From assembly GCA_945861025.1 (NCBI GenBank), contig CAMASN010000016.1, positions 1 through 53,589 of the forward strand: a stretch of DNA of 53,589 nt, given 5' to 3'. Positions within the stretch are counted from its first letter, which is position 1; each line of letters opens with the position of its first letter. A program made the translations under genes and the position numbers. This DNA is from Ferrithrix thermotolerans DSM 19514. GTDB taxonomy: Bacteria > Actinomycetota > Acidimicrobiia > Acidimicrobiales > Ilumatobacteraceae. The notes under the pieces are model-generated. The model did not search any database and was not told where the DNA came from. It worked only from the letters and a program-made list of their open reading frames with translations. This document shows, in pieces, positions 1 to 2,901 of the stretch.

Positions 1-725
1 ATCGACACAACGCGGATCATTCCCCAGCGGGTGGAGCCCAGCGCAAACGCGCCCTCGCGCTCGCCTACCGGAACCTGCGAAAACACTTCGCGCATCACCA
101 CGCACTGGATCGGCATGACCATCATCGCCACCACGATTCCGGCCACAAGTGTCGACGCTGTGTACACGGTGGCCGCCGCCAGTGGATTGTTCGGGTCCGC
201 ACCATCAACGGCAAAAAAAGGAATCCATCCAAACCATGTGTTGATCCAACGCGACACACCAACTACTTGACCCTGCAAAAGAAATAATCCCCAGAGGCCA
301 TACACCACGCTGGGAACCGCAGCCATCAAATCGACCAGTGCCACCAGTGACGAGCGCAACCACTTTGGTGCCACCTCGGTGATGAACAGCGCCGCGCTCA
401 TCGCGATTGGGAACGCAACGATGCCCGCAACAAGCGCAATCAGTACTGTGCCCAGCATGACCTCGGCGATACCGAATTTGTTGGTATCGGGCTGCCATTC
501 GGCCGTTGTGAGAAACGAAAACCCAGTGGCTTTCAGCGCTTGCCACGCCTGGATACCGAGAAAGATCCCGACCGCGGCCATAACCGACAGCACCGTGAGT
601 CCACTGAGCGAAGCGCCGCGGTTGAAGTAGCGATCGCCGCGACCCGGATGGGCGTGAACTTCGCGAGGCTGCGGCGCTGGAGCGTTCGCATCAGCGACGC
701 CGGGAATCGACGTCATCAACTCCAT
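1..725 (-). CDS. pstC: Phosphate ABC transporter permease PstC (partial, C-terminus outside window)
   Basis: Inner-membrane permease subunit of the PstSCAB high-affinity phosphate importer. About 241 residues are present and the reading frame runs off the window edge, so the C-terminus is missing. Visible features are a short cytoplasmic N-terminus with a Pro/His-rich stretch, a first membrane segment near residues 42-62, a long hydrophobic pair near 86-117, the PstC-typical PSVVYGLWGLF motif, and the start of the EAA loop that contacts the ATPase (GEREGAFALGSTRWG). The ATG at 725 lies 3 bases after the stop of the upstream repeat protein, so the two are almost certainly cotranscribed. No pstS precedes it; three unrecognised genes take that place. 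Confidence 0.9.
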   Translation of the reverse strand, partial: MELMTSIPGVADANAPAPQPREVHAHPGRGDRYFNRGASLSGLTVLSVMAAVGIFLGIQAWQALKATGFSFLTTAEWQPDTNKFGIAEVMLGTVLIALVAGIVAFPIAMSAALFITEVAPKWLRSSLVALVDLMAAVPSVVYGLWGLFLLQGQVVGVSRWINTWFGWIPFFAVDGADPNNPLAAATVYTASTLVAGIVVAMMVMPIQCVVMREVFSQVPVGEREGAFALGSTRWGMIRVVS

Positions 726-728
726 GAC

Positions 729-1634
729 TCAGACCAGCCACGCCGCAAGCACGACAATCGTGATGGCTGCGGCGAGGCCCATGAGTAGCACGTCGGGGTG
801 GCGCGCCTGACTCAAAAACGACGCCTTTGCAGGCACTGGTGCGGCCATTGGCGCTGCCATCTGAACGTACTGCGGGATGTACTGCGGCAATGCCATTTGC
901 TGCGGCTGCGCCATTTGGTACGGCTGAGGCGGCGCGAAGTTGGCCCGGTCTTCGAGCACAGCGGCAATCGCAGTTGCAACGACCGTTGCCAACATCTGAG
1001 CGAACGCCTCGGGGTCGAGCACCACGCTATTGGCCGCTACAGGGCGCGCTTCGAGCTGCGGAGTTGGTCCGTCGCTCAGCGCCGAGGGAGCGTCGGTGAC
1101 CACCTCAACAACATCAATCACTTCGACGACAGGCTCAACCACGACAGGCTCAACCACGTCAGGCTCAACCACGTCAACAACAGGCTCAACCAGAAGCTCA
1201 ATGGCCTCAACAACAGGCTCCACAACCGGCTCAACCGGAAGCTCCACAACCTCAGCGACAGGCTCAACCGGAAGCTCCACAACCTCAGCGACAGGCTCAA
1301 CCAGTAGCTCAACCACCTCGGCAACGAGTTCAACCGGAACAATCAGGTTGCGCTCGGCAGCCTCGGCCGCCTCAAGGCGAACTTGCGCAATCAGCGCCGC
1401 ACCTTGCTCACGCTCGGCATCAAGTTCGAGGTCAAGTTCTCGACGGCGCGCCGAGACCAACGGCTCAAGTTTCGCACGTAACTGATCCCGCGCTGCGAGG
1501 TAGTCAGCATCCGCAGCGTCTGGAGCGAGGGCCACAAATTGTTGGTTCAGCGTGCGCAATTGCAGCGTCATTAACGCAACTGCTGCGCGGGGCGAAAGCA
1601 CCGCGGCACCGTTCGACACGATCTCATCAGCCAT
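729..1634 (-). CDS. Tail-anchored hypothetical protein with VEPV repeats
   Basis: Unrecognised 301-residue protein. Residues 1-95 are a charged helical domain (RRRELDLELDAEREQ). Residues 99-178 are a low-complexity run of V-E-P-V/V-V-E-L repeats, two of which are identical 11-residue units. A Pro/Gln/Met-rich linker (PQQMALPQYIPQYVQM) follows, and the last 20 residues form a single hydrophobic helix (LLMGLAAAITIVVLAAWLV), the layout of a tail-anchored membrane protein. An ATG further upstream would add 58 residues that read through the preceding gene, so the ATG at 1634, overlapping that gene's end by 8 bases, is preferred. Its stop is 3 bases before pstC. Function unknown; the repeats suggest an extended spacer or polymeric scaffold (inference). 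Confidence 0.75.
   Translation of the reverse strand: MADEIVSNGAAVLSPRAAVALMTLQLRTLNQQFVALAPDAADADYLAARDQLRAKLEPLVSARRRELDLELDAEREQGAALIAQVRLEAAEAAERNLIVPVELVAEVVELLVEPVAEVVELPVEPVAEVVELPVEPVVEPVVEAIELLVEPVVDVVEPDVVEPVVVEPVVEVIDVVEVVTDAPSALSDGPTPQLEARPVAANSVVLDPEAFAQMLATVVATAIAAVLEDRANFAPPQPYQMAQPQQMALPQYIPQYVQMAAPMAAPVPAKASFLSQARHPDVLLMGLAAAITIVVLAAWLV
1120..1320. repeat. Tandem coding repeats (33-bp and about 15-bp units)
   Basis: Two identical 33-bp copies at 1235-1267 and 1268-1300 encode the 11-residue VEPVAEVVELP unit on the minus strand. Next to them are degenerate 15-bp units based on CTCAACCACGACAGG (about 1120-1200). The array lies inside the repeat gene and keeps its frame, so length changes by slippage would be tolerated. 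It is a protein repeat, not a CRISPR array. Confidence 0.85.
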
Positions 1635-1989
1635 GCTCAGCTCGAATCTGCTCAATCTCGGCTCGCACCGATTCACGGATAGCCGCGAGGTCTTGTTCGT
1701 GCTTGCGTTCCATCTCGGCGATGGTCTCTTTCGATGCGAGCAACTCGGCTCGCAGCATCGAGCGCACATCGGAATCCTGCTCGGCGTTGCGAGCCTCGGC
1801 GCGAGCAATCAATGCTCGGGCTTCGGCGATCTCGAGTTCAAGTCGTCGGCGCTCAGCCTCAAGATCGTCGATCACCGATGAGCTCCACGCGTCCGAGGCC
1901 GCCACCGATATGTGGCCAGGCAGTTCTGCAGCAACACTTGCGCCGTTCAGCGTGACGCCGTTCGTTGAGTTTCCGTTGAATGCGTTCAC
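1627..1989 (-). CDS. Small coiled-coil hypothetical protein
   Basis: Unrecognised 120-residue soluble protein. The first 40 residues are Asn/Thr/Ser-rich and probably disordered. Residues 42-120 are almost continuously charged with regular hydrophobic spacing (DDLEAERRRLELEIAEA, SKETIAEMERKHEQDL), predicting one long coiled coil. It starts 6 bases after the stop of the upstream 301-residue gene and overlaps the next gene by 8 bases, so the three behave as one translationally coupled unit with pstC. It has no membrane segment, unlike both neighbours, which suggests a soluble partner or linker of the two tail-anchored proteins (inference). Confidence 0.7.
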   Translation of the reverse strand: MNAFNGNSTNGVTLNGASVAAELPGHISVAASDAWSSSVIDDLEAERRRLELEIAEARALIARAEARNAEQDSDVRSMLRAELLASKETIAEMERKHEQDLAAIRESVRAEIEQIRAEHG

Positions 1990-1995
1990 CTTGCA

Positions 1996-2901
1996 CTAAC
2001 CGATCCACGCCATGATGATTGCGACTACGGCCACGAAGGCGGCCATCGGCACAACAACCTGAGTAACCACCGATGTGGACGCACGCTTGACGGCCACTGG
2101 TGGTTGCGGCGCTTGCCAGAACTCTTGAAAGGCTTCGGCGCGGGCGACTTCTTCGTTTTCAACGACCACGCTCGGCGCCAACAGTTGAGCGGGTGGAGCA
2201 AGATCAACAGGTTGCGCACCGCCGCAAGGAGCAGCGAAGCTGAAGGGCGCAGCAGCCCGGGCTGGCTCGTCAAGCGCCTCGGCGAGGCTCAGCAACAAGT
2301 CTTCAAGGCTGCCGCCGTGGGCCGTATCAAGAGCGGCCAGCGTCTGCGTTAACGCAACATCGGGGGTGACAGCGTAGGAGCGTGCCGCAGTTGTCATCAC
2401 TGGCGCCGGCAACGGTTGCGGGGCCGACCAATCAACGGCGACTGCGGCGTCAACGCTCGCAACGTGGTGGTGCATGGCCGACCGGGCAAAGGCATCGTCG
2501 AGAGCCGCTCGACCCTCTTCGCGCTCAGCGATCCACCATGCATCAAGCAAGGTTGCAAGCTGACGCTCGGCCTCAATAAACGATTGCTCTCGAGCCGCTG
2601 CCACCACTTCTGTGGCCTGCGCTCGCTCGGGCAGCCCAACCAAGGCAACCTCGGCATCAACTTCGGCGCGATGCATCAGGATCGATCGTTGCGCATCGAG
2701 AAAGCTACGGGTCAAACGACTCTGGACGGCGGCGATATGAGCCAACTGGCCGGCGTCGTGCTCAAGCAGCGATTGGGCGTGGCCAACAGTGTCCAAAAAA
2801 CGCGCATGGGCACCCCTGAGCGCCTCAAAGAAGCTTGCGACCTCGGCCGTTGGGGTGGCAGGGACACGAGCGAAGTCGTGCTGCTGCAGTGTGGTCTCCA
2901 T
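1996..2901 (-). CDS. Tail-anchored hypothetical protein, helical N-terminus
   Basis: Unrecognised 301-residue protein and first gene of the trio in front of pstC. Residues 15-160 are predicted alpha-helical with many Ala, Glu, Gln and Arg and no signal peptide. The centre (160-270) is Pro/Ala-rich and likely flexible. The final 22 residues are one hydrophobic helix (VVVPMAAFVAVVAIIMAWIG) ending in Gly, so the protein is probably anchored by its tail with its bulk in the cytoplasm. The architecture resembles the 729-1634 protein (helical head, flexible middle, C-terminal anchor), although no sequence identity is obvious by eye. Position suggests a role in phosphate uptake or storage, but nothing in the sequence proves it. 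Confidence 0.7.
   Translation of the reverse strand: METTLQQHDFARVPATPTAEVASFFEALRGAHARFLDTVGHAQSLLEHDAGQLAHIAAVQSRLTRSFLDAQRSILMHRAEVDAEVALVGLPERAQATEVVAAAREQSFIEAERQLATLLDAWWIAEREEGRAALDDAFARSAMHHHVASVDAAVAVDWSAPQPLPAPVMTTAARSYAVTPDVALTQTLAALDTAHGGSLEDLLLSLAEALDEPARAAAPFSFAAPCGGAQPVDLAPPAQLLAPSVVVENEEVARAEAFQEFWQAPQPPVAVKRASTSVVTQVVVPMAAFVAVVAIIMAWIG

Follow-up and report, generated by a model that had tools for sequence, protein, structure and literature searches.

The window analyzed here, a stretch of 53,589 nucleotides, constitutes an entire contig (C16) of the 2.89-Mb draft genome of Ferrithrix thermotolerans DSM 19514 (G000), and its left end falls inside a pstC gene, here termed pstC1. 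Upstream of the remaining 5' part of this gene lie three genes on the same strand, which we denote A, B and C (Table 1). The spacings are +6 bases between A and B, -8 between B and C, and 3 between C and pstC1; the open reading frames of the initial annotation, with their coordinates, sizes and spacings, are all confirmed. The arrangement is similarly tight in all seven genus genomes that possess the trio (A-B -4 to +7, B-C -8 to -11, C-pstC 3 to 7), and the trio is constant while the genes upstream of A vary from genome to genome.

Table 1. Features of the trio region (window coordinates) and PstB1 genes with an N-terminal extension (coordinates of the named loci)
Feature	Position	Strand	Description or basis
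Gene A	1996..2901	-	301 aa, ATG start; predicted tail-anchored, long helical head, FW motif before the tail
Gene B	1627..1989	-	120 aa, GTG start; predicted soluble coiled-coil protein of a putatively DivIVA-derived family, N-terminal motif degraded here
Gene C	729..1634	-	301 aa, ATG start; predicted tail-anchored, directly upstream of pstC1
Tail-anchor helix of A (residues 282-301)	1999..2058	-	hydropathy; homology to the C tail
Tail-anchor helix of C (residues 283-301)	732..788	-	hydropathy; alignment of 32 tails
Tandem-repeat stretch, part of the C linker	1126..1339	-	units of 15, 33 and 45 bp
pstC1, 5' part only	3..725	-	start at 725; cut by the contig end; found in relatives
PstB1 with extension	L063 (G000 contig C64) 909-2507
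PstB1 with extension	L067 2218-3714

Differences from two sister genomes fall mostly at third codon positions, and the dN/dS values against them are well below 1 (A 0.13-0.14, B 0.21-0.24, C 0.05, as against 0.04-0.05 for pstC). On both counts A, B and C are real genes under purifying selection and not chance reading frames. None of the three reached the cut-off of any Pfam or NCBIfam family; these searches also detected no sensor domain in them, and no PhoU domain was found at E-values up to 1. Between positions 600 and 3300 of the window no sigma-70-like promoter was found and terminator-like sites occur at chance level, neither of which decides anything here.

A second, sortase-linked Pst system

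In relatives the trio heads a larger cluster with the order A-B-C-pstC1-pstA1-pstS1-second PstS-like protein-sortase-pstB1. It is best seen in G001, where a single contig contains A-B-C-pstC1-pstA1-PstS1, a 903-aa protein with a partial PstS match, a small membrane protein, the sortase and PstB1, followed by four further proteins predicted to be secreted or membrane-bound and then by the canonical pstS-pstC-pstA-pstB-phoU. In the genome of the window, contig C64 begins within the sortase homolog and runs through PstB1 to the canonical pst set. We infer the middle of the cluster in this genome from the contigs of G006 and G008, where pstA1 and the start of PstS1 directly follow pstC1, because the G001 PstS1, used as a query against G000, matched nothing but the canonical pstS on C64, and the 903-aa protein gave no match there. 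Three related draft genomes break inside the cluster, in pstC1 or PstS1 (the left end of the window and the ends of L020 and L022).

The full-length PstC1 of G001 passes the NCBIfam PstC model TIGR02138 (238.2 bits against a cut-off of 196.45), the window copy being cut. PstS1 of G001 scores below the PstS equivalog TIGR00975 (164.6 bits versus 205) and is homologous to a solved PstS (7.6e-25), the alignment including the RSDGSG stretch; it is a PBP_like_2/PstS homolog with a C-terminal hydrophobic helix. In many relatives fn3 proteins, the sortase and the second PstS-like protein share the cluster. Pst1 is a second Pst system, whose cluster also encodes a sortase and predicted surface proteins. 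It resembles the canonical PstSCAB-PhoU system in that PstC1 passes the PstC model and PstA1, PstS1 and PstB1 are homologous to its components, but a separate canonical set exists in both G000 and G001, and Pst1 differs in the presence of A-B-C in front, a membrane-anchored PstS1, a predicted PH-fold extension of PstB1, and the sortase. The initial suggestion that the trio occupies the position of pstS, or replaces it, is wrong, as in relatives pstS1 lies downstream of pstA1.

A PstC1 profile was used to search 150 genomes of the family, 248 and 397 of the order and 296 of the phylum, in overlapping samples, and hits of 469 bits or more, the score of the cut window copy, were taken as PstC1 type. 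This type is found in 35 genomes (22 of the window's family, 11 of other families of the order and two elsewhere in the phylum), eight of which contributed rows to the profile. A C-type tail is encoded directly upstream of pstC1 in 31 of the 35, over six families; it is absent in G300, G213, G699 and G778, and the C protein is short in G027, G210, G046 and G064. As some loci have a short C only or none, PstC1 can work without the trio. B was found in 24 of the 35 genomes, over five families, three of the 24 being seed genomes; eight have no B, and in G098, G060 and G257 there is too little upstream sequence to assess it. A is conserved in seven of nine genus genomes, and a profile built from those seven sequences alone identified ten further loci in the family, giving strong matches in 17 of the 35. 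Within the genus, PstC1 is missing from G002 (about 93% complete) and G004 (about 76%), and neither of these shows A or C.

Outside the PstC1 type, a tail-anchored coiled-coil gene is also found upstream of pstC in G025 (PstC 341 bits), which adds a seventh family. Among the lower-scoring PstC loci 64 are without such a gene and three have one, all three from G025, with some genomes counted repeatedly; six tailed rows that are cut PstC1 pieces and three rows with too little sequence were set aside. Absence of the trio beside pst in relatives had been named beforehand as a refutation of the initial annotation; instead, the link to pstC is kept in other genera and families, and the tie of the trio to the PstC1-type transporter is well supported by these gene neighborhoods. 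Among the literature matches listed, none can be recognized from the portions of text available as describing a pst operon with tail-anchored or DivIVA-like genes.

The sampled Actinomycetota also include a broader type of cluster, in which PstC-, PstA- and PstS-like proteins are combined with a sortase and often with PstB; it occurs without the trio and in several gene orders (L058, L059, L111-L115, L151-L155 and L160-L164; for example L111, L151 and L160).

Tail anchors, a DivIVA-like coiled coil and a predicted PH-like fold

Both A and C show the features of tail-anchored proteins, namely one strong hydrophobic segment at the extreme C-terminus (mean hydropathy 2.73 for residues 282-300 of A and 2.61 for residues 283-301 of C) and no N-terminal signal segment. 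This bears out the single C-terminal membrane helix initially proposed for each. Three weaker hydrophobic segments in C (1.58-1.77) are judged to be Ala/Val-rich linker or amphipathic helix rather than membrane helices. As neither protein has such a segment, their heads would lie in the cytosol. An AlphaFold model of A, of low confidence (mean pLDDT 60.8, pTM 0.24), has a long helix at 52-155 and a final helix at 276-300.

A profile comparison of the last ~30 residues of A and C gave 92%, as against 0.3-6.1% for controls in which the A tails were compared with one column-shuffled C set and with the tails of four other membrane proteins of the cluster. The upstream matches in L153 and L163, which represent the sortase gene, were left out of the C set, and the tail-less L104 was left out of the A tails. 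The genus profile of A also matches C tails in G307 (1.3e-4) and G257 (6.7e-4). By these comparisons, A and C have homologous tail anchors, that is, one shared module, which is a new finding. Their equal length of 301 residues is by contrast a coincidence, as C has 250 residues in two sister genomes; the additional 51 residues of the window copy lie in the tandem-repeat linker. Several C linkers are rich in proline.

A has no membrane tail in G056 and, as judged by eye, in several other families; the tail-less A-like proteins of G337, G307, G500 and G454 were recognized by position and the FW motif, with no score. In G203 the A profile reaches only E 0.03, in G313 only tail matches were obtained (7e-4), and a short A candidate in G018 was noted by eye only, the profile giving no match at E 1. 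Weak matches in G036, G019 and G009 were dropped on reading their context, as they lie in unrelated proteins or frames, and a match of A to Pfam CHASE3 (E 0.032), below its cut-off, was treated as coiled-coil noise. G116 and G136 have a second, diverged A paralog upstream of A (L107 1528-2412; L109 1354-2220). In G313 (L144) a tail-anchored protein with the FW motif is encoded between B and C upstream of pstC1, so that the order looks like B-A-C.

In the window's own B the Pfam search detected no DivIVA match, and the curated PF05103 cut-off was not reached. Three of ten other B proteins matched Pfam DivIVA at 15.4-23.8 bits, below the cut-off of 28 bits; these three are distant members, with E-values of 4.6e-5 (G307), 9.7e-4 (G337) and 0.018 (G203). 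In a profile comparison with DivIVA-domain sequences from ten of these genomes, chosen by motif pattern, six distant B proteins gave 97.3% (97.0% upon removal of the spurious row L187), all B proteins together, leaving out one overlapping L104 frame, gave 91.2%, and those of the window's family alone only 44.2%. The controls gave 4.3% (reversed B), 6.5% (A) and 8.0% (C), and 60 column shuffles at most 1.8% for the full profile and 2.3% for the N-terminus. The 40-column N-terminal motif of the distant B proteins gave 87.7%; the coil alone gave 73.4%, coils being weak evidence. The alignment runs on past the motif over 110-113 columns, with the coiled coil apparently in the same register. The motif itself (GYxxxxVDxFL) is recognizable in the distant B proteins and shortened in the window's family, and genus B and distant B are related at 98.2%.

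On the strength of the distant-B scores against DivIVA, the low shuffles and the relationship of genus B to distant B, we call B a probable DivIVA derivative, a new finding, and not a DivIVA; the window's copy appears to be without most of the DivIVA signature. The distant B proteins appear to have in common with the DivIVA family (PF05103; TIGR03544) its short N-terminal motif and the coil behind it. In contrast, none of the B proteins tested reaches the curated cut-off, the window's family has a degraded motif, and B is encoded in a transporter operon together with two tail-anchored proteins. Matches of B to eukaryotic coiled-coil families, all below cut-off, were likewise discounted as coiled-coil noise. 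Separate from the shorter DivIVA proteins, longer open frames (about 560-690 aa) whose DivIVA domain passes the cut-off were observed in G000 (C76:6590-6931), with similar ones in G001, G087, G337, G454 and G500.

PstB1 possesses an N-terminal extension that is strong in 13 of the 21 loci searched and weak in two, and which no Pfam model reports. A model of the G000 copy (mean pLDDT 83.8) recovered as its best Foldseek match the PH domain of Vps36 (E 2.9e-4), and VIA-align gave Z-scores of up to 11.1 with an rmsd of 2.6 over 93 residues, the titles being largely PH, EVH1 and related domains. The extension is thus predicted to adopt a PH/EVH1-type fold, which is not a family assignment, as many chains of the PH superfold score alike. 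Folds of this type often bind proline-rich peptides or lipids, and together with the proline-rich linkers of several C proteins this suggests a possible contact between the C linker and the PstB1 extension. The idea that the extension tracks the trio was dropped, since G027 has it alongside no more than a short C, and a diverged form of it occurs in G300 and G213, which have no C.

A putative membrane scaffold for the transporter

The best explanation of these observations, though held with slightly less than even confidence, is that the trio forms an accessory membrane scaffold which holds or places the sortase-linked Pst transporter. We infer the mechanism of placement as follows. A, B and C would be accessory parts of the second, sortase-linked Pst-type ABC transporter (PstC1-PstA1-PstS1-PstB1). 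The related C-terminal helices would hold A and C in the inner membrane with their helical heads in the cytosol, and the conserved tail of C, whose gene ends a few bases before pstC1, probably packs against PstC1. B, as a soluble DivIVA-descended coiled coil, probably multimerizes with the heads of A and C to give a scaffold under the membrane. Such a scaffold could cluster the transporter and position it at one particular location, for example the pole or the septum, and sortase substrates could be attached to the wall there. In favor of this reading are the frequent presence of the C-type tail and of B upstream of pstC1, the tight spacing, the shared absence of PstC1, A and C in two genus genomes, the common tail module, the DivIVA scores of the distant B proteins, and the constancy of the trio next to changing upstream genes. 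Against it speak the degraded DivIVA signature of the window's own B and the 44% of its family, the Pfam DivIVA scores below cut-off, the tail-less A proteins, and the PstC1 loci with a short C or none. The pole or septum would be a plausible site. The cell-pole idea of the initial annotation gains an indirect basis from the DivIVA-like character of the distant B homologs. Its alternative of a link to polyphosphate storage is not supported, as nothing found points to polyphosphate, while its broader proposal of an undescribed, membrane-attached, pst-tied and scaffold-like unit is supported.

A less probable alternative is that the trio is a module for signaling or activity control, which would monitor Pst1 and relay its state to a two-component system or to the ATPase in a PhoU-like manner, possibly via the PH-fold extension of PstB1. 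In G027 and G210 the gene immediately upstream of the short C indeed encodes a PhoB/RegX3-type response regulator, as does the one ahead of the similar gene in G025, but none of the genus loci read shows a regulator gene next to the trio. Likewise, the frequent binding of peptides by the PH/EVH1-type fold and the proline-rich C linkers would agree with signaling, whereas the extension does not strictly track the trio and A, B and C themselves have no detected sensor domain. A study in another phylum describes separate phosphate importers that each have their own accessory regulators (PMC13170248). The trio resembles the PhoU-type regulators presented there (PhoU, PitR and the PhoU domain of NptA) as a set of accessory genes associated with a single type of importer, but it differs in having no detected PhoU domain and in consisting of coiled-coil proteins, two of them tail-anchored.

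It is rather unlikely that the trio serves the sortase and surface-protein side, for instance by organizing secretion or anchoring sites, with the link to PstC1 secondary; the shared cluster with the sortase, the second PstS-like protein and fn3 proteins in many relatives speaks for it, but C abuts pstC1 directly and not the sortase, and phylum members such as G699 and G778 have the sortase cluster without the trio. That the three are neutral passengers, fast-evolving coiled-coil genes lying upstream of pstC1 by chance, is very improbable, for although their heads and linkers are highly variable in both length and sequence, the dN/dS of all three is low, the tails are conserved over six families (seven with G025), and in two genus genomes the absence of PstC1 is shared by A and C.

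The scaffold reading can be taken a step further, if only speculatively. It is conceivable that a DivIVA-type protein was recruited into the operon of a nutrient ABC transporter and forms, together with two tail-anchored proteins paralogous to each other, a dedicated scaffold, i.e. a transporter-specific polar or septal organizer, which fixes the phosphate transporter and the sortase-linked surface proteins to one site of the cell. If this is true, some bacteria would deliberately place a phosphate transporter by means of an operon-encoded scaffold with a DivIVA ancestor. It would also link phosphate acquisition to wall-anchored surface proteins in freshwater (lake) actinobacteria, and provide testable handles on several nameless protein families.
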